Of a stretch of 64,000 bases of DNA, positions 9,098 through 46,107 are shown piece after piece. The stretch comes from Magnetospira sp. QH-2 (GTDB taxonomy: Bacteria > Pseudomonadota > Alphaproteobacteria > Rhodospirillales > Magnetospiraceae). Position 1 is the stretch's first letter, and each line of letters begins with the position of its first letter. Position numbers and translations under genes: made by a program. Under the pieces are notes generated by a model. The model saw nothing but the letters and a program-made list of their open reading frames with translations. It did no database searches and was not told the DNA's origin. The stretch covers positions 3,858,501-3,922,500 of the forward strand of contig NZ_FO538765.1 of the NCBI RefSeq assembly GCF_000968135.1, given 5' to 3'.

Positions 9098-10143
9098 TTG
9101 GGCATTTGGACCAGATCAACCATCTTGCGGTTCAAAGCCGCGGCGGTGGTTTCGGGAATCTTGAACACCCATCCATCGGCCCGGCGCACCGCTTCCAGCA
9201 AGGCCCGACGCAAGCCATCCTGAGCCGGGTCGGCCGTTTCCTCGGCCCGCCCAAGCGAAAGACGCGCCCAGTGGGCCTCTTCGAACGGCGCCACGGTCAT
9301 GCGGACCATGGGCCCGGCCGTGGTTTGGATCTCCACCAACAAGCTGCCGTCGGGATCAAACGGAATCCGGTCGGCCCGGCGAACGTCCTCGAACAGGAGG
9401 CCATCCAATGCCTGTGTGAGCGGCAAAACAGCCATGGGTTTGGCCGCGCCACTGCCCGTTGGGGCGTTTTCCGGCCGGAACCGTTTGGTCAAAGGATCCT
9501 TGGACAGGACCACCACGTGGTCCTTGGGATGAAACAGGGTGACCTTGGCCACCGCCTCGGCGGGCAGATCGATCAACAACCGGTTCATCCATTGGGTGGG
9601 GTCATCGCTGAACGGCAATTCCCCGCGCGCCAGCCAGGTTTCGTTGGATTCAGCCCGGCGTAGATAGATCCCGCTTTGGCCTCCGTCGCCGATGTTGAAG
9701 TTGCGCTTGCCGACCATCAGCCCGGCGACAATATGACCGTCCATGTCGATCAGGGTGATCTTGTGGGCCTTGGAGTCCTTATGCTTGAGGTCGCGCAAGT
9801 GCAGCCGGGCGTGGTTTTTAGCCAGTTGGGTACGCGGTTCAAGCTTTTGCAGCCGCTCCAGACCGAGCACCAGATCCCGCACCTTGGTGGGATCGGCGTG
9901 ATAGCCATCCCGTTGTTCGATCGCCCACAGGCCTTCTTCGCGCCGCAAGGAGACCCTGCGACCCACGCTTTCCACGTTGATCACCGCCAATTCCCCCAAC
10001 CGCTGGGCCATGTCCGGCAGCATGGGCCCGGGGTTTCCGGCCCGCAGGGCGTCGGGACCGGCATAGCGGGTCAGCACGTAGGCGGCGGCCAAACAAGCCA
10101 CCAAGGCGGCCAGGGCCAGGATCAACACGGTCTTGAGCTTCAT
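9094..10143 (-). CDS. DUF4340 domain protein of a GldG-type ABC system
   Basis: A 349-residue protein with one N-terminal membrane helix (MKLKTVLILALAALVACLAAAYVL) and a soluble body with the DUF4340 pattern (RREEGLWAIEQRDGYHADPTKVRDLVLGLERLQ, then KHKDSKAHKITLIDMDGHIVAGLMVGKR). The body is expected on the periplasmic side. DUF4340 proteins are encoded with GldF/GldG-like transporters in many Gram-negative bacteria; their role is unknown. The ATG at 10143 overlaps the stop of the auxiliary-protein gene (ATGA), placing it last in the four-gene transport operon. Confidence 0.85.
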   Translation of the reverse strand: MKLKTVLILALAALVACLAAAYVLTRYAGPDALRAGNPGPMLPDMAQRLGELAVINVESVGRRVSLRREEGLWAIEQRDGYHADPTKVRDLVLGLERLQKLEPRTQLAKNHARLHLRDLKHKDSKAHKITLIDMDGHIVAGLMVGKRNFNIGDGGQSGIYLRRAESNETWLARGELPFSDDPTQWMNRLLIDLPAEAVAKVTLFHPKDHVVVLSKDPLTKRFRPENAPTGSGAAKPMAVLPLTQALDGLLFEDVRRADRIPFDPDGSLLVEIQTTAGPMVRMTVAPFEEAHWARLSLGRAEETADPAQDGLRRALLEAVRRADGWVFKIPETTAAALNRKMVDLVQMPN

Positions 10144-12027: not shown

Positions 12028-12816
12028 TCAGGAGGCTCTTTTCATATCGACGATGACCACGTTGGCAAACAGCCAGAAAGTGATCATGGCGGCGAAGTAG
12101 ATGATGTCGCGCAGGTCAATGACACCCTTGGTGATGGCATTGAAATGAGTCAGGAAGCTGAGGCTGCCCACCGCCTCGATGAGAATGCGCGGGGCCCAGC
12201 CTTGGAGCAGCGCCAGCACCATCTCGGCCCCGCTCATGGTGAACAGGAAACAGACCACGGCACCGACGATAAAGGCGATGACCTGATTACGGGTCAGGGC
12301 GGAAATGCACGACCCGATGGCCAAAAACGCCCCGGCCATGAGCAGGCTGCCGATGTAGCTGGCGAATATGACCCCGTTGTCCGGGTCCCCCAACACATTG
12401 ACGGTGATCCACATGGGAAAACTCAGAACCAGGGAGAGCCCGACAAAGGCCCAGGCGGCAAAAAACTTGCCCAACACCGCCTCGGTCACCGAGATCGGCA
12501 AGGTCATCAGCAGCTCGATGGTGCCGCTTTTGCGTTCCTCGGCCCACAACCGCATGGCCACGGCGGGCACCAGCAACAGATACAGCCAGGGATGATAAAG
12601 AAAGAATGTCTGTAGATCCGCCTGACCCCGACCGAAGAAATCCCCCACGTAAAAGGTGAAGGCCCCGGACATGGAAAGAAACACGGCGATGAAGATATAG
12701 GCCAGCGGCGTGGCGAAATAGCCCGCCAGTTCGCGACGGAAGATCAGCCGCACATTGCGGGTCATTTCCTTTTGCGCCAGCAGGCTCTGCCGCATGGCCG
12801 CGCCCCGCCTACCCAT
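12028..12816 (-). CDS. ABC-2 type permease (GldF-like)
   Basis: A 262-residue permease with about six membrane helices and the GldF/NosY motif AEERKSGTIELLMTLPISVTEAVLGKF after the second helix. It opens with RLIFRRELAGYFATPLAYIFIAVFL, typical of the family. It should form the channel with the ATPase encoded immediately upstream, whose gene it overlaps by 8 bases. The start may be 12816 or the in-frame ATG at 12795. Substrate unknown. Confidence 0.9.
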   Translation of the reverse strand: MGRRGAAMRQSLLAQKEMTRNVRLIFRRELAGYFATPLAYIFIAVFLSMSGAFTFYVGDFFGRGQADLQTFFLYHPWLYLLLVPAVAMRLWAEERKSGTIELLMTLPISVTEAVLGKFFAAWAFVGLSLVLSFPMWITVNVLGDPDNGVIFASYIGSLLMAGAFLAIGSCISALTRNQVIAFIVGAVVCFLFTMSGAEMVLALLQGWAPRILIEAVGSLSFLTHFNAITKGVIDLRDIIYFAAMITFWLFANVVIVDMKRAS

Positions 12817-13543
12817 GGATATGCTCCCATTTGCTCAGGTGGCCGGTGATGCGGCGGAAGGCGTTTTCCAGGCTCGTGTCGGCGCCGATGAGCTGTCGGG
12901 GCGTACCGTCCGCCAGTACCTTGCCGGCGCCGATGACCACGGCGCGGCTACAGACCGCTTCCACCTCTTCGAGGATATGGGTGGAGACGATGATCGCCTT
13001 GTCTTGGGACATGTCGCGGATCAGTTCCCGCACATGATGCTTCTGGTTGGGGTCCAGGCCGTCGGTGGGCTCGTCGAGGATCAGCACTTCCGGGTCATGC
13101 AGGATCGCCTGGGCCAGACCGACCCGCCGCCGGAACCCCTTGGACAGGGTATGGATGGGCCGATGCAACACGTCTTCCAACGCCGTGCGCGCCACCGCCC
13201 GTTCGACCTTTTTTCGGCGTCTCTTGCGGTCGTAGCCGCGAATCCCGGCGACGAAGCCGAGAAAGGCCGCGGGGGTCATGTCGCCATAAGAGGGCGCACC
13301 CTCGGGCAGATAGCCCAGGCAGCGCTTGACCCCCACCGGATCATCAATGACGTCGCGGCCACAGACCTGGGCGGTGCCGGAATCCGGATCAAGGAACCCG
13401 GCGATCATTTTCATGGTGGTGGATTTTCCCGCGCCATTGGGTCCGAGGAAACCCAGAACCTCGCCGCGATGGACCGTCAGGTCGATGCCGTCCACGGCAA
13501 CCACCGGCCCGAAGCGCTTGCTCAGGCGTTCCAGAACGATCAT
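12809..13543 (-). CDS. ABC transporter ATP-binding protein (GldA-like)
   Basis: A 244-residue nucleotide-binding subunit. It carries Walker A GPNGAGKST, signature LSKGFRRRVGLAQAI, Walker B VLILDEPTDGLDP and switch His in IIVSTHILEEVE. It powers the adjacent GldF-like permease. The ATG at 13543 is chosen because MIVLERLSKRFG is the normal N-terminus; the frame is open to 13582 but the extension has no homologous look. It is first in the run permease, GldG-like, DUF4340. The gap of about 90 bases to the gene upstream holds no obvious terminator, so transcription from 13635-16.6 kb may read into it. Confidence 0.93.
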   Translation of the reverse strand: MIVLERLSKRFGPVVAVDGIDLTVHRGEVLGFLGPNGAGKSTTMKMIAGFLDPDSGTAQVCGRDVIDDPVGVKRCLGYLPEGAPSYGDMTPAAFLGFVAGIRGYDRKRRRKKVERAVARTALEDVLHRPIHTLSKGFRRRVGLAQAILHDPEVLILDEPTDGLDPNQKHHVRELIRDMSQDKAIIVSTHILEEVEAVCSRAVVIGAGKVLADGTPRQLIGADTSLENAFRRITGHLSKWEHIHG

Positions 13544-13634
13544 GTCATACAAGGATCGGCACCCCATTTCCCCCGGCCCCAAAAATGGCCGACCGGCGGG
13601 CGGAATTCAAGGCATTATCAAACTTCCCTTGGTA

Positions 13635-14201
13635 TCAATTCAGGTCGCTGATCACGGTCAGACGTTTCTTTTCCAAAAAGTCCTGAATATCCTTCTCGGC
13701 CAGGATCTTCTCCTGCCGGGCAAATTGCAAAAAGAACTCGCGGATCTGATCGAATTCGCCATTGATGGCGGTGCGTAATTCGTCGCGCAGAGCCTGGGTT
13801 TCCTGTTTGAATTCGGTATTGAATTTCTCCCCCAGGCGGCGCTTTTCCTCTTCCGCCCAGGCGGCCAGATCATTGAGGGCGGCTTCTTTTTGCGCCCCGA
13901 CCAACTTGTCCATCTCGGCGATTTTATCCTGGCGCCGGGTTTCTATCTCGGCTTCCAGCTTGCCAAGCGATATCAGCAGCTTTTCCTCCTGCGACGACAG
14001 GATATTGATATTGCGCTCGACCGCCGCGACGGTGCGGTCGAGGGTTTGCTTCTCCTTGCTCAATCGCGACAGTTCGTTGCCCAGATGGACCCGCATGGCT
14101 TTTTCGCGTCCTTGGCGGCGGGCCATGGCGGTCATATTGATCAAGGCGGTAACGGTGACGAAACCCAGAATCAGGCCGGGAATGATAATCAACAGGGGCA
14201 T
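13635..14201 (-). CDS. membrane-anchored coiled-coil protein
   Basis: A 188-residue protein. Residues 2-25 are one membrane helix (PLLIIIPGLILGFVTVTALI), followed by basic residues that place the rest in the cytoplasm. Residues 40-180 are highly charged and helical with heptad spacing (LSRLSKEKQTLDRTVAAVER and later EEKRRLGEKFNTEFKQETQA), predicting a long coiled coil. It begins 19 bases after the VWA-PilZ stop, with GAGGA upstream, so it is almost certainly in that operon. A scaffold role is an inference. No family recognised. Confidence 0.8.
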   Translation of the reverse strand: MPLLIIIPGLILGFVTVTALINMTAMARRQGREKAMRVHLGNELSRLSKEKQTLDRTVAAVERNINILSSQEEKLLISLGKLEAEIETRRQDKIAEMDKLVGAQKEAALNDLAAWAEEEKRRLGEKFNTEFKQETQALRDELRTAINGEFDQIREFFLQFARQEKILAEKDIQDFLEKKRLTVISDLN

Positions 14202-14220
14202 GGGTCGGGTCCTCGTCGGT

Positions 14221-15771
14221 TCAGGTTGCGTCGATACGGGTCAACAATTCGATCCAGCGCATCTTGTCATCGACCCCCTTGGCAAAGGTTTCGGGAAGGG
14301 CCACAAACAGACCGTCGCCCCGATCATCCAGGCGGCCATCGATGATTTCCAAGGTCACGTCCAGGATCGGACATTGGATGCGGGTCACGATGGCGCCGGT
14401 CATGTCCCGGTCCCCGGCGGCGAACAAAACGCCGTGCATGGAAAGATCCACCGCCGGTCCATGATCCATCTGACCGTCGCGGTTGACCCAATGCACGATC
14501 ATCGCCCCGTCTGGAACTTTTACCCGGGGAGCGAATCGCTTGTCGTTGTCGATTCGCTCATAGCCCTTGGACAACAAGCGATCACGGGCTTCCTCGGCTT
14601 CCGCCATGGTGGCGCGCACCCGATCTTCGATGAAGTCCGACGTCATGGCGGTGGGCACCAGCACCACTGGCTGCGGTTCCGACTCCGGTCCTTCGCGGTG
14701 CCGCCGCCGAAACCGCACCATAAGAACGAGGCCAACGACCAGAATCAGCAGCACCGCCCCCAGCAGCGGTATCAGATTGGAAGAGGACTCTTCATCCTTT
14801 TGCATTCCCGGAGTCGGTGCCGGTGGGGCGGAGGGGGACGGCCGCGTTTCCGGTTCCGGTTCCGCTTCGGGTGGGATCTCGGCGATCGGCAGATCCCGCG
14901 CCGCCTCGCGGGTTTCTGCGGCCGAGGTCAGCACATCACGCACCCGCGCCGCATGATCGGCGGGCAGCGGTTGATCGATGATGGCCGCGGTTTTTTCCTG
15001 CAACAGCACCATGGCTTTTTGTAGTTGTTCCACCGGTGATTCCTGGTCGGCGATGCGCAGGGGCAGGTACTGAGCGCCCAGGGCCTCGGCCCAGCGACGC
15101 AGGAAATAGGAACGTCCGGACAGATCCCAGATGATCAATCGTCCGGCCAGGCGGGGCTGGAGGTTTGGCAGATGCTCTTCGATCAAGGCCAGATTGCGTT
15201 CGTGATAGGCGATCCCCAGCCGGTCATAGCGGGCGGCGGGGGATTGGTCCTTCAGGGCCATCAGCTTTTCGTTCAACGCGCCATAGCGGGGATCGTCCCG
15301 CACCGCCTCGCTGAGATACCCCAGCTTGGCATCCCAGATTTCCGGCTGACCGTCGGAGACCAGCAGCACCAGGGCGGGTTGGCTGGTCGCGGTCTTATGG
15401 CGCAAATAGGCCAGGGGCCGCTCGAAATCGGTGGCCAGGCCCTTGGCCTCAATGGCATCGATGTGTTTTTCCAGCGCCGCCATGCCCTCGGCGTCATCGG
15501 TGGGCACCGCCATATGTTCCCGCGCCGCCTCGTCGAAACCGGTGAGCACCAGCCGGTGCGGCGTTTCGAAGGTACGCACGAAAGTCATCAACCAAAGTTT
15601 GGAAGCCAGCTTGGGATCGTAGCGCTCCATGGAGCCTGATTCATCGAATACCACCACCATTTCCGGTGGCTCGGCGGCGGATGAGGCGCCCGGCATGCCA
15701 AGGATGCCTGCCAGCAGACAGCCGAGAGTAAAGGCCAGAAGGAAAGAGAGCCGCTCAGCCGGTTTCGTCAT
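14221..15771 (-). CDS. VWA domain - membrane helix - PilZ domain protein
   Basis: A 516-residue protein. A signal peptide (about 1-33) leads into a periplasmic von Willebrand factor A domain whose metal site is intact (D43-x-S45-x-S47 in DESGSM, T114, D140 in LLVSDG). A Pro/Glu linker (300-325) precedes one membrane helix (334-353) ending in RFRRRHR. The cytoplasmic tail has the PilZ c-di-GMP signature: R412FAPR416, then D442LSMHG447 with a beta-rich end. The fold suggests a receptor linking c-di-GMP in the cytoplasm to metal-dependent binding in the periplasm. Its start overlaps the 15755-16039 gene by 17 bases with no clear Shine-Dalgarno, implying translational coupling. Confidence 0.85.
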   Translation of the reverse strand: MTKPAERLSFLLAFTLGCLLAGILGMPGASSAAEPPEMVVVFDESGSMERYDPKLASKLWLMTFVRTFETPHRLVLTGFDEAAREHMAVPTDDAEGMAALEKHIDAIEAKGLATDFERPLAYLRHKTATSQPALVLLVSDGQPEIWDAKLGYLSEAVRDDPRYGALNEKLMALKDQSPAARYDRLGIAYHERNLALIEEHLPNLQPRLAGRLIIWDLSGRSYFLRRWAEALGAQYLPLRIADQESPVEQLQKAMVLLQEKTAAIIDQPLPADHAARVRDVLTSAAETREAARDLPIAEIPPEAEPEPETRPSPSAPPAPTPGMQKDEESSSNLIPLLGAVLLILVVGLVLMVRFRRRHREGPESEPQPVVLVPTAMTSDFIEDRVRATMAEAEEARDRLLSKGYERIDNDKRFAPRVKVPDGAMIVHWVNRDGQMDHGPAVDLSMHGVLFAAGDRDMTGAIVTRIQCPILDVTLEIIDGRLDDRGDGLFVALPETFAKGVDDKMRWIELLTRIDAT

Positions 15772-16039
15772 TGCGCATGAAAGCGGTGGTAACGTTGGTC
15801 ATGAGATGCAGCACCGCCACCGTGCCCACACCGCCGATCAATAGCATGGCGGTGCCACTGCCCGCGATCCCGCCGACAGCCATGGCTCCAATCCCGGCAA
15901 CGGCTTTGGAGGCGGCGCCCCAGGTGGTGGCGCCACCGATGACTTCTGTCGCGCCCGAGGCGGCAACGCCCAGGCTCTTGCCCATGCCCGCCTTGGCAAC
16001 GGCGGTCTTGATGGTAGCGGTTGTCACGGTCGTGGCCAT
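15755..16039 (-). CDS. small Ala/Gly-rich membrane protein, Mms-like composition
   Basis: A 94-residue protein made mostly of Ala, Gly, Thr, Val and Met, with a Lys-containing start (TVTTATIKTAVAKAGMGKSL) and one or two hydrophobic segments (about 45-62 and 62-80: GTAMLLIGGVGTVAVLHLM). Low-complexity sequence of this kind with a GxG-rich membrane segment resembles small magnetosome membrane proteins (Mms family), but the LGLGLG motif is absent and I claim no homology. The ATG at 16039 has AAGGG about 11 bases upstream. It lies 31 bases behind the similar 16071 gene and overlaps the VWA-PilZ start. Confidence 0.6.
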   Translation of the reverse strand: MATTVTTATIKTAVAKAGMGKSLGVAASGATEVIGGATTWGAASKAVAGIGAMAVGGIAGSGTAMLLIGGVGTVAVLHLMTNVTTAFMRNDETG

Positions 16040-16070: not shown

Positions 16071-16679
16071 TTAGTCGGAGTTCACAAATCGAGTAGCTGA
16101 ATTGGCGGTATAGCGGCTCACGGCAATGAGACCGATTCCGGTCAGCAGAGCCAAGCCGGTGATGCCGGTGATGGCGACACCGACGGTAATCGGCCCGCCG
16201 ACGATGCAGGTTTTCGCCGCCACCCCGGCTTTCGCGGCCAGACCGAGGGCCGCCTTGCCGGTTGTCGCCGAGGCACCGGTTTTGGCCAAGGTGCCGGTCG
16301 CCAGTCCCGCTTTACCCGCGCCCGCGGCGGTCGCCGCGCTTCCGTTGGTCACGGTAACGGTTGTTGTCGCGCCTGTGGCTCCAGCGGTGCCGACAGCCCC
16401 CCCCACAATGGTCTTTCCCGTCGCGGTTTTGGCAGTTACCCCGGGTATCAGGCCAATACCGGTTTTCGTCCCGGCGCCTGCCGTGGCGGCACTTTTACCG
16501 AATCCAAACCAACCCCAACCGACGGCACCCTTGGTGGCGGTTCCCTTGGATATGACCAATCCGGCTTTATTGGCCGCTGCGACCTGAGGAGTGCTCAATG
16601 AAAGCCCTTTCGAGGTTCTTTGTTGATCTTTGAGGTCGAGGTTCGAAGGCTCGAAAATAGTATAGGCAATAATGAACAA
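16071..16679 (-). CDS. Ala/Gly/Thr-rich membrane protein with AKTG-type repeats
   Basis: The frame gives 202 residues from TTG 16679. A better start may be TTG 16598 (175 residues), where GAAAGGG lies just upstream. The body is Ala/Gly/Thr/Lys-rich, with loose repeats (GLATGTLAKTGASATTGKAA, AAKAGVAAKT) like the N-terminal region of Mms6 precursors. Near the end is one long hydrophobic segment (about 168-190, VGVAITGITGLALLTGIGLIAV), then a polar tail. It is transcribed away from the MamD-like gene across a shared regulatory gap. Function is unknown; a magnetosome-surface role is a guess from composition and neighbourhood. Confidence 0.55.
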   Translation of the reverse strand: MFIIAYTIFEPSNLDLKDQQRTSKGLSLSTPQVAAANKAGLVISKGTATKGAVGWGWFGFGKSAATAGAGTKTGIGLIPGVTAKTATGKTIVGGAVGTAGATGATTTVTVTNGSAATAAGAGKAGLATGTLAKTGASATTGKAALGLAAKAGVAAKTCIVGGPITVGVAITGITGLALLTGIGLIAVSRYTANSATRFVNSD

Positions 16680-16710: not shown

Positions 16711-16737
16711 TGTTATTGAAAATGACTATCAATAACA
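16711..16737. promoter_or_regulatory. Fur-box-like palindrome in the divergent intergenic region
   Basis: TGTTATTGA and TCAATAACA form perfect 9-bp arms around a 9-base centre. The 19-mer inside it (16718-16736) matches 15 of 19 positions of the Fur consensus GATAATGATWATCATTATC. It lies 32-58 bases upstream of TTG 16679 and about 190 bases upstream of the MamD-like ATG, so it is better placed to control the leftward genes. The sequence around it (16700-16800) is much more AT-rich than the window. Confidence 0.5.
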
Positions 16738-16928: not shown

Positions 16929-17954
16929 ATGGCTGCCGAACTGATCATGGCGAAACTGGCTGGTTTGAACCAAGCGACCCAAGTGGCCGGGATGGCCGGA
17001 AAGTCCTACACCGTGGGCAAGGTCTCCACGGCGGGCAAGGGTCTGACCAGCTGGCTGTTCCTGACCCCCACCAAGGGCGGCTCCACCGTGGCCCTGAAGC
17101 TTGAGGGCGCCCGGCAGGCGACCGAGCTCTCCACCATGGTCGGCAAGACGGTCACCGTGGCCAAGGCCAAGGGCATGGCCGGCATGGGCGTGACCAAATG
17201 GCTGGTGCTCAAGCCGGTGGCCGCCAAGGCCGCGGTCGTGGCGGGTGCCGCTGGCGCCGCCGGTGCGGCGGGTGCCACCAAGGCCGGTGCCGGATCCCTC
17301 ACCATGATCAAGCTCGAAGGCGCCAAACAGGCGACCATGGCCGCTGGCATGTCCGGCAAATCCTTTACCGTCGTCGATCCGGTAACCATGGGTCAGGGCG
17401 CCGGCAAGTGGTTGTTCCTGCAGCCCGCCAACGGCGGCGGCAAGCTGATCGCCCTGAAAATGTCCCAGGCCGGACAGGCTAATGCGTTGATCGGCAAGAC
17501 CATTACTATCGGCAAGGCGCCGATGATGGCCGGTAAGGCCAGCACCTGGATGGTGGTCAAGCCCGCCGCCGGTGCGGTGGCCGGTAAGGCAGCCGCTGGC
17601 GGTGCGGTGATGAAGACTGCGGCCATGGCCAACAAGGGCGCCTGCGCCACCATGGGCAAGACTGTTGCCATGGTTCAGCCCGCGGCCACCAAGGCGGCGG
17701 CGGCCACCGGCACGGCGGCCAAGGCGGCGGCCGGTTCCACCGGTGCGGCGGCGGCCACCAAGACGGCGGCGGCGGGAACCATCTGGACCGGCACCGGTCT
17801 GAGCCTCGGCCTCGGCCTGGGTCTCGGTGCCTGGGGCCCGGCACTGCTGGGCGGTGCCGTGGCGGCGGCCGGATACGGCTATTACAAATCGCGCGGCAAG
17901 AAGGCCGCTGGCGAGAGCGGCGATGCCCTCGACGACATGATGACAGACGTTTAA
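16929..17954 (+). CDS. mamD: MamD/Mms7-like magnetosome membrane protein
   Basis: A 341-residue protein. Residues 4-212 hold four repeats of about 45 residues built as KLEGARQAT...GKTVTV...WLVLKP (starts near 4, 52, 122 and 171), with a fifth fragment at 227-251. An Ala/Lys/Thr-rich stretch (213-283) leads to the hallmark GTIWTGTGLSLGLGLGLGA-WGP (283-304) within one membrane segment (about 289-318), then a basic stop and an acidic end ESGDALDDMMTDV. LG-repeat plus acidic tail is the Mms6/MamD layout, tied to control of magnetite crystals in magnetosome membranes. AAGGGG precedes the ATG by 8 bases. No other mam gene lies nearby, so this may be a second, island-external copy. Confidence 0.8.
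   Translation: MAAELIMAKLAGLNQATQVAGMAGKSYTVGKVSTAGKGLTSWLFLTPTKGGSTVALKLEGARQATELSTMVGKTVTVAKAKGMAGMGVTKWLVLKPVAAKAAVVAGAAGAAGAAGATKAGAGSLTMIKLEGAKQATMAAGMSGKSFTVVDPVTMGQGAGKWLFLQPANGGGKLIALKMSQAGQANALIGKTITIGKAPMMAGKASTWMVVKPAAGAVAGKAAAGGAVMKTAAMANKGACATMGKTVAMVQPAATKAAAATGTAAKAAAGSTGAAAATKTAAAGTIWTGTGLSLGLGLGLGAWGPALLGGAVAAAGYGYYKSRGKKAAGESGDALDDMMTDV
16938..17564 (+). repeat. four intragenic repeats in the MamD-like gene
   Basis: Protein repeats at residues 4-50, 52-98, 122-169 and 171-212 share a hydrophobic-basic start (KLxGAxQAT), a central GKxxTV, and end in W-L/M-hydrophobic-x-P. The copies have diverged in DNA, so the duplications are old. A Gly/Ala insert (101-121) separates repeats 2 and 3. 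Confidence 0.75.
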
Positions 17955-22479: not shown

Positions 22480-23106
22480 GTGCCGACCCTAACAGACCTG
22501 GCCCGGCGCCTCAATCGGCGCGCCTGTTCTCCCCTGCCCCCGTTAATTCTGATGACCGATGACGACCGTCTGCCGGATCCCAGCGGGCTTGTTGCTCACC
22601 TACCGAAGGGAAGCGCGATCCTTGTCCGCAGCCGGAAAGCCTTGGACCGCGAACAACGGGCGCGGCGTCTGATACCGCTCTGCCGACCAAGGGGAATCAA
22701 GCTTCTGGTGGCCGATGATATCGGACTGGCGATGGGATTGGGTCTCGACGGGCTGCATATTCCCGAAGCGAAGGTTCGTGATCTGCCGTTGTGGCATATC
22801 TGGCGACGGCCCGGATTCTTGGTGACCACTTCCGCACACTCTCTTGCCGCCTTGCACAGGGCGGCGCGGGCGGGCGTGGATGCGGCCTTGCTCTCTCCCG
22901 TGTTTTCAACCGGATCCCACCCCAATGCGCGGCAATTGGGCCCAACCCGATTCGGAATCTGGACCGGTGAAACCTGTCTTGCCATATACGGATTGGGCGG
23001 CATTGACAGCAAACAAGCGGCTCGGCTACTGAACAGCGGTGCCGTCGGCATGGCGGGCATTGATCTGTTCAAGGACATAAGTGGCAAGGAGGTTCCGTTT
23101 GGCTAA
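22480..23106 (+). CDS. thiamine phosphate synthase / TenI-like protein
   Basis: A 208-residue TIM-barrel protein of the ThiE/TenI family, seen in KLLVADDIGLAMGLGLDGLHIPE, AGVDAALLSPVFSTGSHPNA and IYGLGGIDSKQAARLLNSGAVGMAGID. The usual Arg-Asp of the ThiE NDR loop is replaced (VADDI), and the phosphate loop is STGSHPNARQLG rather than the T-x-T-K form. It may therefore be a divergent or regulatory TenI-like member. The GTG at 22480 follows AAGGA by 5 bases. It overlaps the TPR-sulfotransferase gene by 8 bases. Confidence 0.75.
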   Translation: MPTLTDLARRLNRRACSPLPPLILMTDDDRLPDPSGLVAHLPKGSAILVRSRKALDREQRARRLIPLCRPRGIKLLVADDIGLAMGLGLDGLHIPEAKVRDLPLWHIWRRPGFLVTTSAHSLAALHRAARAGVDAALLSPVFSTGSHPNARQLGPTRFGIWTGETCLAIYGLGGIDSKQAARLLNSGAVGMAGIDLFKDISGKEVPFG

Positions 23107-25159
23107 ATCTCGCCGACCTCGAGAACAGACCCACCCGCCGAATCCCGATCTCCAAGGGGGTTTGGATGCCTTGCGACGGGGTGACCTCCAAAGGGCCATC
23201 CCGGCCCTGAAGAACGCGGCGCGCAGGCACCCCGGCCATGCCGAGAGTCAGCTTTACCTGGGTGTCGCCCTCTCCATGGCCGGGCGGTCCGAAGACGCGG
23301 CGCGGGCTTTGGATGATGCCTGCCGCCTGGCCCCGGGGAATGGGGATGCGCAATATAACTACGGGCTGGTTCTGTTGGGTCTGGGACGGCCCCTCGAAGC
23401 CGTCCCCCGATTCGAAAAAGTTCTGGCCAAAAAGCCCAAGGATGCGGAAACCCATATGAATCTGGGCTTGGCCTTGAAACATGCCGGATCCCCAAAAAAG
23501 GCGCTCCGGCATCTGCGGCGATCCGTGCAGCTGGCACCCAAATCAGCGGATGCCTGGATTAACTTGGGCAACCTATTGATTCAAATGGAAGATCCGGAGG
23601 ATGCGGCAACGGCCTTTCGGTCCGCGCAAAAGATTGCTCCCCGCAATGCCGCCCCCTGGACCGGATCCGCCATGGCGCACATGGCCCTGGCCCAGACGGC
23701 ACAAGGGAACTTGGCGGCTTCACAGCATCTCGTGACCGCTGAAGCTGACCTGGAAACCGCCCTGAAAGAGGCGCCGGACAGTATCGAAGCCTTGTCCTAT
23801 ATGGGATTGGTCCTGGAGCGACTGGATCGTTTGGCGGAAGCCGAGCACTGCCTGCGACGCGCTTATGAACTGTCGCGGCACAGGGGATCCAGTGCGGAGG
23901 AAAGACAGAATACGCTTCAGAATTTTGCCCTGTTCCTGGATCGGGTCAATCAGACCGAGGGGGCCGTCGATTTTTTGGAAAATGAGCTCGAACAAGGGGG
24001 CTATCAACCAACGCTGGTTCGCCTGCTGGCCAGGATGTTGACCAGTTTGAACCGCTATGACAATCTCGAGTCCTTGTTCGCGGCCTATGAAAGCCAAGGG
24101 TTCTCGCGGTCGATCGCCTTGCTTTATCGCTGTGTTGATCGACAATACCATTTATCGGAATCAGATGTGGCAAACCTGAAAGCCGTTTTGGATTTGGAGC
24201 AGGAAAATGCCGATGATCTGGCTGGTGTCGCCATGGCCTTGTTCCACCATTTCGACTTGAACGGCGATCAGGCAAAGGCCTTCGAATACCTGACCCGGTC
24301 CAATGCCTGGGCGCGACAGAATGGGCAGCCCTATCTCCGGGAAGCGGAAGATGGCTTTGCGGATATGATGGCGGCTCTTTTTGCCACCGGGATCCCATCC
24401 GGTCTCAAGGATTGCGGCCATGAAAGCGAACAGCCGGTTTTCATCGTCGGCATGCCCCGGTCGGGAACCACATTGGTCGAACAGGTCATCGCCAGCCACC
24501 CTGCTTGCGGGGCGGCCGGAGAGCTGTCCGAGATCAGTGCGATTGCCAAGGCTATCGCCGGGTCGCGCACGATCAACGATGATTTCTCGCCCGGCTTTCG
24601 CGCCTTGGATTGCCAAAGTATTCGGGAATTCGCGAATCGGTACCTGAACAAACTAACGGTGGGCGGTGAGCCCCATCACCGGCGGATTATTGATAAAATG
24701 CCGTCTAATTTCAAGTACTTGGGCCTCATTGCTAGCCTGTTTCCCAAGGCACGGATTATCCATTGCCGACGCCATCCCATGGCCACCTGTTATTCCATTC
24801 TGACGCAGCGATTCAACCGGGCCCACCCCTATGCCTATGCCCAGGAGGATCTAGCCCATCAGTACAGGCACTATGAAAGACTGATGGCATTTTGGGAATC
24901 CGTCTTGCCGATCCCCATTCATACGGTGCGCTATGAAGACCTGGTTACGGATCCGGACGCCGAGATACGATCCCTGATCAAGGCCTGCGGCTTGTCTTGG
25001 GATGATCGATGTCTGCAATTCCACCAAACGGAAAGGGTGGTGAAAACCGCCAGCCAATGGCAGGTTCGCCAACCCATGTACCAGACATCACTGGACCACT
25101 GGCAGCACTATGGATCCGAATTGTCTCCCTTGAAACAGGGACTTGGACTTCCTGATTAG
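23099..25159 (+). CDS. TPR-repeat sulfotransferase
   Basis: A 686-residue fusion. About residues 15-340 hold tetratricopeptide repeats (for example AESQLYLGVALSMAGRSEDA and AETHMNLGLALKHAGSPKKA). Residues about 440-680 are a sulfotransferase domain with the PAPS 5'-phosphate loop FIVGMPRSGTTLVEQVIASH and the family blocks IIDKMPSNFKYLGLIASLFPKARIIHCRRHPM and YEDLVTDPDAEI. It should transfer sulfate from PAPS to a protein or glycan recruited by the TPRs; no signal peptide is seen. TTG 23099 is chosen because AAGGAGG lies exactly 6 bases upstream. Confidence 0.88.
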   Translation: MAKSRRPREQTHPPNPDLQGGLDALRRGDLQRAIPALKNAARRHPGHAESQLYLGVALSMAGRSEDAARALDDACRLAPGNGDAQYNYGLVLLGLGRPLEAVPRFEKVLAKKPKDAETHMNLGLALKHAGSPKKALRHLRRSVQLAPKSADAWINLGNLLIQMEDPEDAATAFRSAQKIAPRNAAPWTGSAMAHMALAQTAQGNLAASQHLVTAEADLETALKEAPDSIEALSYMGLVLERLDRLAEAEHCLRRAYELSRHRGSSAEERQNTLQNFALFLDRVNQTEGAVDFLENELEQGGYQPTLVRLLARMLTSLNRYDNLESLFAAYESQGFSRSIALLYRCVDRQYHLSESDVANLKAVLDLEQENADDLAGVAMALFHHFDLNGDQAKAFEYLTRSNAWARQNGQPYLREAEDGFADMMAALFATGIPSGLKDCGHESEQPVFIVGMPRSGTTLVEQVIASHPACGAAGELSEISAIAKAIAGSRTINDDFSPGFRALDCQSIREFANRYLNKLTVGGEPHHRRIIDKMPSNFKYLGLIASLFPKARIIHCRRHPMATCYSILTQRFNRAHPYAYAQEDLAHQYRHYERLMAFWESVLPIPIHTVRYEDLVTDPDAEIRSLIKACGLSWDDRCLQFHQTERVVKTASQWQVRQPMYQTSLDHWQHYGSELSPLKQGLGLPD

Positions 25160-44663: not shown

Positions 44664-45704
44664 TTAGCCGCGCTGCTGAATGATCTCGGCCACCCGAGCC
44701 ACATGCTCTGGCGGCGTTTGCGGCACGATGCCATGACCCAGATTGAAAATGAAGGGGCCTTGTCCAAGGACGTCAAGAATGGTGTTCAACTCCCGCTCCA
44801 TGGCTTCTCCCCCGGCCACCAGTAGCATGTTGTCCAGGTTGCCCTGCACCGTGCAGTGGGGCTGAATATTGTCTGCTGCCCAGGTTACCGGAATGGTCGA
44901 ATCCAGGCTCACGCCATCGACATTGGTTTCACGGACAAAATCGGGATACATCATCCCGGCGCCACGGGGAAAACCGATGATCGGCACGCCGGGACAGGCG
45001 GCTTTCAGGGTTTCCACCAGCTTGATGGTCGGATCGATGACCCAACGCCGGAACTCCGCTGGTGGCAGCACCCCGGCCCAGCTATCGAAAATCTGAATGA
45101 TCTCGGCGCCGTTTTTCACCTGCTCGATCAGATACCGACCGGTGGCTTCCACCAACAGATCGATCAGTTTGGCAAAGCCTTCGGGATCGCCATAGGCCCA
45201 GGAACGGGTCACGGGATAATCCTTGGACCCCCGGCCCTCGACCATGTAGGTGGCCACGGTCCAAGGCGCCCCGGCAAAGCCGATTAGCGCCGTGGTCTCG
45301 GGAATTTCCCTGGATAGCCGCCCGACGGTCTCATAGACCGGCGCCATATGGCCATGCAGGCGTTCCAGGTCCAACTGCTCCAGCTCGGCCACGGAGCGGA
45401 TGGGATCCAGCACCGGCCCTTCGCCTTCGAGAAACTGAACTTTCTGACCCAGAGCATCCGGGATCACCAGAATATCGCTGAACAGAATGGCCGCGTCCAT
45501 GTGATAGCGCCGTAAGGGCTGAAGGGTAACTTCCACGGCCAGGTCCGGCGAATGGCAGAAATTCAGGAAGTTTTTCGCACTTTTGCGGACTTCACGGTAT
45601 TCGGCCAGATAGCGGCCCGCCTGGCGCATAAGCCAGAAAGGGGGACGGGTCAGGGTTTCCCCGGCCAAGGCGCGGAGCATGGTCTTCTCGGATGACTGGA
45701 TCAT
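44664..45704 (-). CDS. hemE: uroporphyrinogen decarboxylase
   Basis: A 346-residue UroD with the signature [21 protein letters not shown] and [22 protein letters not shown]. It decarboxylates uroporphyrinogen III to coproporphyrinogen III. ATG 45704 is preferred over 45746 since [16 protein letters not shown] is the normal opening. It borders the replication origin, as in Caulobacter and Rickettsia. Confidence 0.97.
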
Positions 45705-45822
45705 GGGCTGGATGGCTCTCCTCGATTTCGTCCCCAACCCATACAATTTAATATCTTAAGATTAAAGGGGCTGTTGTTGTAGTTGGGGGGTGGAAACCTG
45801 TGGATCCCCGCTTTCAGGGATC

Positions 45823-45831
45823 TTATCCACA
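45823..45831 (+). promoter_or_regulatory. DnaA box, perfect
   Basis: TTATCCACA, exact consensus, within oriC. Confidence 0.85.
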
Positions 45832-45936
45832 AACCCGTGCCACGGTTGCCGGGGTGGGCTTTGGTCCTGGGACTCGTTTTCCACGATCCCATGCTAAAAC
45901 CAAGGACAGACAGGCAAAAAATTGATATACCCGCAT

Positions 45937-45945
45937 TGTGGATAA
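45937..45945 (-). promoter_or_regulatory. DnaA box, perfect, inverted
   Basis: TGTGGATAA on the plus strand, the exact complement of TTATCCACA, 105 bases from the first perfect box. Confidence 0.85.
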
Positions 45946-46107
45946 GGGGGATGAAGCACGCGTTGCTCCGTTTGTTTGATGGTTTTCCCGCATCCTGAAT
46001 GATTTTATCCGTCTGGGGACAAGTGGACGGACCGAAAAACCGTTTAAGGGAATGAAAAAGAGGTTTTGGCCCAAAAGGTCGAACTGTCCACAGGCAGACG
46101 AGGGAAT

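Follow-up and report, generated by a model that had tools for sequence, protein, structure and literature searches.

The open reading frame (ORF) at positions 16929-17954 (+) of the analysed DNA of Magnetospira sp. QH-2 is, judged from its sequence, a genuine mamD gene. Its product is probably a MamD of a second evolutionary type, which typically occurs beside the mcaA and mcaB genes and not in the mamGFDC operon. In QH-2, the gene is located in an islet about 1.18 Mb away from the main magnetosome island. The window, i.e. the whole stretch of 64,000 nucleotides that was analysed, corresponds to C1:3858501-3922500 of a genome consisting of two contigs of 4,021,307 and 31,063 bases. G and L numbers are our labels for genomes and loci.

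The ORF runs from ATG to stop and encodes 341 amino acids. The protein contains four repeats with the pattern K(L/M)...GK(S/T)xT(V/I)...W(L/M)(F/V)(L/V)xP, followed by an A/K/T/G-rich linker, by LSLGLGLGLGAWGPALL, which is the LG repeat membrane motif, and by the acidic C-terminus DALDDMMTDV. Thus, the four repeats, the Ala/Lys/Thr linker, the membrane motif and the acidic tail described in the sequence-only reading are all present. The assignment to the MamD family made there holds over the repeats as well as over the LG motif, as the proposed profile search returned a match of the NCBIfam MamD equivalog NF040916 to residues 3-340 (370.3 bits, cut-off 100, E = 7.8e-111). The Mms6 and MamG models cover only the LG half of the protein and both remain below their cut-offs. 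For a silk-like or surface-exposed A/G/K/T-rich repetitive protein resembling MamD by composition alone, one could point to the low-complexity regions, to a Pfam FlgD_tudor match above the cut-off (31.5 vs 26.9 bits) and to the low confidence of the AlphaFold model of the repeats (mean pLDDT 45), with which Foldseek found no match at E <= 0.001. However, this explanation is contradicted by both the profile and the tree described below; the equivalog match extends from end to end and the MamD model has no match over cut-off in 14 control genomes, so that a compositional artefact can be regarded as ruled out. In Magnetospirillum strain AMB-1, a MamD-GFP fusion goes to the magnetosome membrane (PMC11332177).

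The MamD profile search identified the window protein as the sole MamD over cut-off in the whole genome. The idea that the window gene is an extra copy is therefore wrong, although three other, weaker LG-motif proteins are encoded at about 1.047, 1.078 and 1.485 Mb of C1. A genome-wide check for other magnetosome genes, which had also been proposed, uncovered the main magnetosome island at about 1.038-1.065 Mb of C1. The models of MamZ, MamO and MamA match there over cut-off, those of MamE (662 bits, cut-off 800) and MamX (218 bits, cut-off 400) below it, and MmsF and MamH were named by sequence inspection, MmsF having no model match. The distance of about 1.18 Mb between the island and the window mamD is measured through the origin of replication, if C1 is circular. 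The earlier placement of the origin about 28 kb away from the gene agrees with a sign change of the GC skew near 45 kb (window 44664-46051), beside a gene that looks hemE-like by inspection. According to a comparison of four complete genomes including QH-2 (4.02-4.97 Mb, plasmids in XM-1 and QH-2 only), the cluster region of each strain contains mamGFCD and the other operons (PMC6532209); in contrast, the MamD profile search found no MamD over cut-off in the main island region of QH-2.

Several further proteins were observed in the course of these searches. A Mms6/MamD-like LG protein of 219 amino acids with an unrelated N-terminal part (L002:1420-2076, -, C1 about 1.485 Mb) is encoded at a large distance from the island as well as from the islet; by inspection, its gene is flanked by a GTPase gene and a flagellin-like gene. 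Another LG-motif protein of 235 amino acids (L010:12179-12886, +, C1 about 1.077 Mb) is encoded near genes read as feoAB. A protein of 320 amino acids (L008:15332-16294, +, C1 about 1.040 Mb) may be a MamX-MamS fusion, as its N-terminal half matches MamX (218 bits vs a cut-off of 400) and its C-terminal half MamS (97 bits vs a cut-off of 200). When eight main-island proteins (MmsF, MamH, E, O, P, A, Q and Z) were compared with the 353 ORFs of the window, only MamA gave a match, to a TPR-type ORF at 23081-25159 (26% identity, 2e-08), which is taken as a shared repeat and not as a second MamA.

Among 317 genomes of the order, MamD exceeds the cut-off in 34 and reaches E <= 1e-10 in 36, the latter being the MamD-positive genomes of all linkage counts given below. 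ORFs of at least 190 amino acids with blastp scores above 65 bits were used for a tree, giving 41 rows plus the window protein; the MamD matches of G103, G111 and G248 are left out, and G254 and Terasakiella SH-1 (G256) joined in a second tree only. The 42 rows separate with a support of 100/100 into a clade of 20 rows, which includes the window protein and the MamD of the AMB-1 islet, and 22 rows of the type encoded in the magnetosome island (MAI type). The second tree, to which SH-1 and its congener G254 were added, shows the same split with 22 vs 22 rows (SH-aLRT only). The gene neighbourhoods differ accordingly: in loci of 3-20 kb, a MmsF/MamF-type gene is found in 20 of 22 MAI-type loci vs 4 of 21 second-type loci. 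The latter four belong to Magnetovibrio MV-1 (G166), G171 and the two Terasakiella-type genomes, in which the second-type MamD (MamD-II) stands near other main-cluster genes, and two more second-type loci contain one main-cluster gene each, MamQ (G006) and MamE (AMB-1 islet). With the MamD/Mms7 of the mamGFDC operon of AMB-1 and MSR-1, the window protein shares the repeats, the LG motif, the acidic tail and the NCBIfam MamD match, but it belongs to the other clade, and neither a place among the MAI-type proteins nor the neighbours mamG, mamF and mamC were found for it. The closest parallel is amb0400 of AMB-1, a full-length MamD of the same clade with 43% identity, which is also encoded outside the main island in an islet with mcaAB. 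The two cases differ in that the window MamD is the only one over cut-off in its genome. Moreover, seven mam-like genes have been reported for the AMB-1 islet (PMC2818848), whereas the window contains no convincing relative of the eight island proteins tested.

The surroundings of mamD had been described as housekeeping genes, which seems to hold for the right flank, where a response regulator and a RibBA-like ORF appear ordinary by inspection of the translations, but not for the left flank. Upstream of mamD and divergent from it, four ORFs for proteins of 202, 94, 516 and 188 amino acids follow each other in tandem on the minus strand. The first gene of this divergent unit (16071..16679, -, TTG start as listed) encodes a small A/G/T/K-rich protein of 202 amino acids with a hydrophobic C-terminal stretch. 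It is followed after 31 nt by the gene for a small A/G/T-rich hydrophobic protein of 94 amino acids (15755..16039, -), which overlaps by 17 nt with the mcaA-like gene (14221..15771, -). The McaA-like protein of 516 amino acids consists of a hydrophobic N-terminal segment, a von Willebrand factor A (vWA) domain with the MIDAS motif DESGS, a proline-rich linker, a transmembrane segment, a helix and a C-terminal domain predicted to have a PilZ fold. After a gap of 19 nt, the mcaB-like gene (13635..14201, -) encodes a protein of 188 amino acids with a hydrophobic N-terminal segment, a coiled-coil-like middle part and a conserved C-terminus; the N-terminal transmembrane segment and the coiled coil were assigned by inspection only. 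Over about 500 amino acids, the 516-aa protein is about 41% identical to vWA proteins found in other magnetotactic bacteria, with E about 1e-125. The 188-aa protein shares about 39% identity with the tandem partner of those proteins (E about 1e-30; 5e-31 against McaB-like). The vWA assignment is further based on the intact MIDAS motif and on structure matches to vWA domains, the Pfam VWA_2 score of 21.8 bits being below the cut-off of 27. The McaB-like protein scores 191 bits against an McaB profile that contains the window sequence itself, and no McaB was found in plasmids. No convincing relatives of the 202-aa protein were found in the 317 genomes (the self match and one match at E = 7e-4 with internal stops), and the 94-aa protein had no blastp match at E <= 1e-2 in the relatives' loci then compared.

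In AMB-1, McaA marks the curved inner membrane by its vWA domain, McaB rides on the magnetosomes and both proteins set the chain spacing (Wan et al. 2022, PMC9512821). The literature on AMB-1 describes that with McaA and McaB the dynamics of MamK are altered and the organelles are spaced. The MamD of the AMB-1 islet at 431798-432814 is amb0400 of PMC2818848 and an ORF of the same genome (G138) has 776 amino acids, as does McaA; since the coordinates and the ORF length agree, the islet pair of AMB-1 is McaA and McaB. The window pair resembles it, as well as the mcaAB-like pair of AMB-1, in that a vWA-transmembrane-cytoplasmic protein and a transmembrane coiled-coil protein are encoded in tandem, with identities to the islet pair of 38% for the McaA-like (4e-60) and 29% for the McaB-like protein (6e-16). 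The gene order is reversed: mcaA precedes mcaB in the window (13635-15771) and in the Terasakiella-type and SAR324 loci (L059, L060, L088, L091), whereas mcaB precedes mcaA in the Magnetospirillum-type loci, LM-1 and the AMB-1 islet. The mca clusters of LM-1 and SO-1 contain an LG protein of 253-274 amino acids (6 of 14 named loci) and, beside MamD-II, a protein of 267-280 amino acids of unknown function (L080:8236-8997, 12745-13587; L082:11444-12268, 9283-10086). Neither was seen in the window, where the genes for the 94- and 202-aa proteins occupy this place. The two-protein logic of organelle spacing has also been compared with the McdAB system for carboxysome positioning, an analogy without homology according to PMC9512821.

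mcaAB-like genes have been reported in many magnetotactic bacteria (PMC9512821), and their arrangement beside mamD recurs in relatives of QH-2. Since the window mamD is part of an mcaAB-like islet and this arrangement recurs, the view that it stands outside any visible magnetosome gene cluster had to be given up. With an McaA profile (E <= 1e-20), 21 of the 317 genomes gave a match, and 20 of these are MamD-positive (Fisher 6e-21). McaA occurs in 15 of the 19 genomes with type-II MamD, the other four having no match, vs 5 of 17 other MamD genomes (Fisher 0.006), and in 13 of the 15 genomes with both genes, the type-II mamD is located at most 3.4 kb from mcaA. In these counts, G254 and G256 belong to the 17 other genomes and are scored as McaA-negative, their vWA-less McaA falling below the reporting limit; recounted by the later tree, 15 of 17 genomes would be linked. 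Both SH-1 and G254 show the arrangement mcaA-mcaB-mamD, including a gap of about 0.2 kb, and their McaA is devoid of the vWA part. The membership of MamD-II in a mamD-mcaAB group is well supported.

The linkage is recurrent and not obligatory. McaA was found at 14 loci of named genomes and MamD beside it at 7. At three of the loci without MamD the contigs end close to the gene (UT-4, BB-1, nJC1bin3), in SP-1 the 10 kb downstream of mcaA contain no MamD, and no MamD was found in the stretch examined for two loci of SAR324 and one of Deltaproteobacteria. The two SAR324 metagenome-assembled genomes (MAGs; L088:483-2519, L091:9410-13900) encode McaA- and McaB-like proteins in tandem with intact PilZ motifs. 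Weak McaA- and McaB-like neighbours of an MAI-type MamD were detected in G101 and a weak McaB-like neighbour in G130. The absence of mcaAB from MAI-type loci is weakly tested since many of them comprise only 3-4 kb of sequence. Around the second mcaA-like gene of AMB-1, the only MamD is of the MAI type and about 37 kb off.

Two other explanations of the neighbourhood have to be weighed here. MamD could do its usual job only, i.e. act on crystal size and membrane growth, with mcaAB as hitchhikers that have no functional link to it. This is possible, if doubtful: the MamD match is of full length, G080 and G160 hold type-II mamD and mcaA on different contigs, and five MamD-positive genomes outside the type-II set of 19 have McaA and no type-II MamD. 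Against it, the linkage recurs in 13 of 15 genomes with both genes, in varying gene order and orientation, and is also found in Terasakiella SH-1 and G254, with main-cluster genes close by. The islet could also be what is left of a magnetosome cluster that was duplicated or transferred and is now decaying without function. The 1.18 Mb to the island, the islet's size of only five genes and the lack of a visible phenotype after deletion of the mcaAB-like pair of AMB-1 (PMC9512821) would fit such a remnant, which we nevertheless regard as improbable, given intact and tightly spaced ORFs, motifs conserved across deep divergence and the fact that the islet houses the only MamD over cut-off of the genome. 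The preferred reading remains that the window mamD is a second-type gene of a recurring mamD-mcaAB group. No statement on such a module, or on a PilZ domain in McaA, was found in the available passages of the literature searched.

The C-terminus of the McaA-like protein (residues 412-516; 14224..14538, -) is predicted to adopt a PilZ-like fold with intact c-di-GMP motifs, RFAPR at residue 412 and DLSMHG at residue 442. Both motifs (RxxxR and [DN]xSxxG) occur in the window protein and in 12 of 14 named relatives (13 of 15 rows), including the two SAR324 MAGs; the McaA-like proteins of MV-1 and the Deltaproteobacteria MAG have no such C-terminal domain. At the level of the order, 17 of 19 assessed loci have both motifs, in a set that overlaps with the named relatives and omits G102 (no ORF in row). 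AlphaFold2, run on the alignment of 15 rows, predicted six strands and a C-terminal helix with block pLDDT values of 81-90 over residues 421-510. The start of the RxxxR loop falls into residues 401-413, for which the confidence is low. Among the best 50 PDB rows of a Foldseek search, 19 are PilZ-bearing proteins (Alg44, PA 4xrn, CeSA, YcgR, MrkH, the cellulose synthase BcsA and 5y4r_D, presumably the PilZ protein MapZ), most of the others being vWA proteins. For the single-domain PilZ rows, whose aligned spans are not given, E values range from 2e-3 to 6e-3 and target TM scores from 0.37 to 0.63. The best 50 rows of a VIA-align structure search are almost wholly vWA domains covering about residues 34-268, so this search barely probed the C-terminus. 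HHalign against 23 of the 24 Pfam-PilZ domains of the order gave a score of 23.3 with both motifs in register and a probability of only 25%. None of 200 column shuffles reached this score (best 20.4), and the reversed alignment (12.7), MamD (9.1) and seven other McaA slices (up to 13.9) scored lower. Pfam PilZ (PF07238) gave no match, neither in four proteins nor in any of the nine domain rows, and searching the PDB by sequence with the domain returned no PilZ protein either. In the whole genome, 33 GGDEF matches and 0 PF07238 matches (E <= 1) were counted, and therefore the usual c-di-GMP receptors of the species are not obvious.

In AMB-1, McaA binds the organelle-borne McaB through a cytoplasmic '530 region', and residues 530-665 are required for this binding (PMC13170167). 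This segment aligns to residues 376-513 of the McaA-like protein, i.e. to the helix and the PilZ-like fold, which suggests a domain of the PilZ type as the identity of the '530 region'. The term PilZ does not occur in the available passages of PMC13170167 and PMC9512821, nor does c-di-GMP in those of PMC13170167; in strain IT-1, a separate PilZ protein has been named near the magnetosome cluster (PMC5088516). Like the receptors Alg44, YcgR and MrkH, the window domain has a predicted barrel and helix and both binding motifs, but it shares a chain with a vWA domain and is too divergent for PF07238. It could also be that the domain is a plain protein-interaction module of PilZ-like fold that never binds c-di-GMP, a reading that falls somewhat short of even chances. 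McaA of AMB-1 works without either motif (PMC13170167) and Pfam PilZ misses the domain, which would be in line with it; the occurrence of both motifs where they would be expected, in the window protein and 12 of 14 named relatives and in the overlapping set of 17 of 19 order-level loci, argues in the other direction.

The state of the motifs can be compared with the chain type of the strains. McaA of AMB-1 differs from the window protein in having neither RxxxR nor DxSxxG, and the same is true for SH-1 and G254; AMB-1 also carries an McaA-like protein with intact motifs. Fragmented chains have been reported for the McaAB-containing strains AMB-1, PR-1 and SH-1 (PMC9512821) and sub-chains for MV-1 (PMC9840458), a strain that is not listed in the available passages of PMC9512821. 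With G254 taken as PR-1 from its genus, the genomes with motif-less or domain-less McaA (AMB-1, SH-1, G254 and MV-1) are those of reported fragmented-chain or sub-chain strains, and intact motifs occur in the McaA-like proteins that Wan et al. grouped with continuous-chain strains. This correlation comprises few independent events and leaves out YQV-1 and SHHR-1, which are mcaAB strains without sub-chains.

The intergenic region between mamD and the mca genes has a length of 249 bp and a GC content of 41%, compared with 60.5% for the window. It contains two overlapping Fur-box-like 19-mers, each matching 14 of 19 positions of the E. coli consensus. In a one-strand scan, both 19-mers were the only matches of that score in the window, and 25 of 2000 shuffles of the intergenic region reached it. 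The 80 kb surrounding the island contain six Fur-box-like matches: one located about 70 bp ahead of a gene for a 148-aa LG protein, two by the genes read as feoAB, two overlapping ones about 180 bp before the gene for the 235-aa LG protein and one inside an unrelated ORF. In the relatives' loci, such a site occurs only upstream of the mamD-like gene of the AMB-1 islet and is absent from 9 of 10 scanned. The putative Fur-like site between mamD and the mca genes is weak and is treated as a lead only. A perfect inverted repeat, TGTTATTGA-N9-TCAATAACA (16711..16737), overlaps with the two 19-mers. It was rejected as a genome-wide operator, as only one other site was found, at 3 mismatches. A sigma-70 scan gave no promoter-like site, and the NsrR consensus (PMC11014258) is too loose to discriminate an operator reading.

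Taken together, the islet module may couple crystal maturation by MamD-II with organelle placement by McaAB. In the model for AMB-1, MamD restrains the growth of the magnetosome membrane until it is cleaved by MamE (PMC11332177), and the AMB-1 islet region iR3, which we infer to hold the mamD-like gene, contributes to crystal shape (PMC9512821). A likely input to the module would be c-di-GMP, a signalling step that we put forward as a hypothesis. The vWA landmark, which is periplasmic in AMB-1, is joined to a presumably cytoplasmic PilZ domain, and McaA-like proteins with intact motifs could thereby act as transmembrane c-di-GMP receptors, in which the second messenger gates the contact with McaB. 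The chain architecture would then answer to the second-messenger state, MamD-II would be the crystal-side partner, and loss of the motifs or of the domain would lead to constitutive spacing and fragmented chains. We offer this receptor reading tentatively and consider it rather less probable than the type assignment of MamD. Furthermore, the Fur-like operator may tie mamD and the mca genes to iron.

What had looked like a stray MamD is thus replaced by a recurring mamD-mcaAB group, and the type of MamD that belongs to it can be named. For the region of McaA that is essential for its function, and to which the available literature passages give no fold name, a domain identity is offered. Magnetosome placement may thereby be connected to c-di-GMP. 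A hint in this direction comes from a transposon screen in MSR-1, which revealed ten genes outside the island with non-magnetic insertions, one of which encodes a diguanylate cyclase and three of which are in units with one; however, the phenotype could not be confirmed in the unmarked deletion mutants that were made (PMC7676999), and the genome taken as that of MSR-1 (G120) gave no McaA profile match. Finally, the state of the McaA C-terminus may provide a testable reason why chains are fragmented in some strains only.
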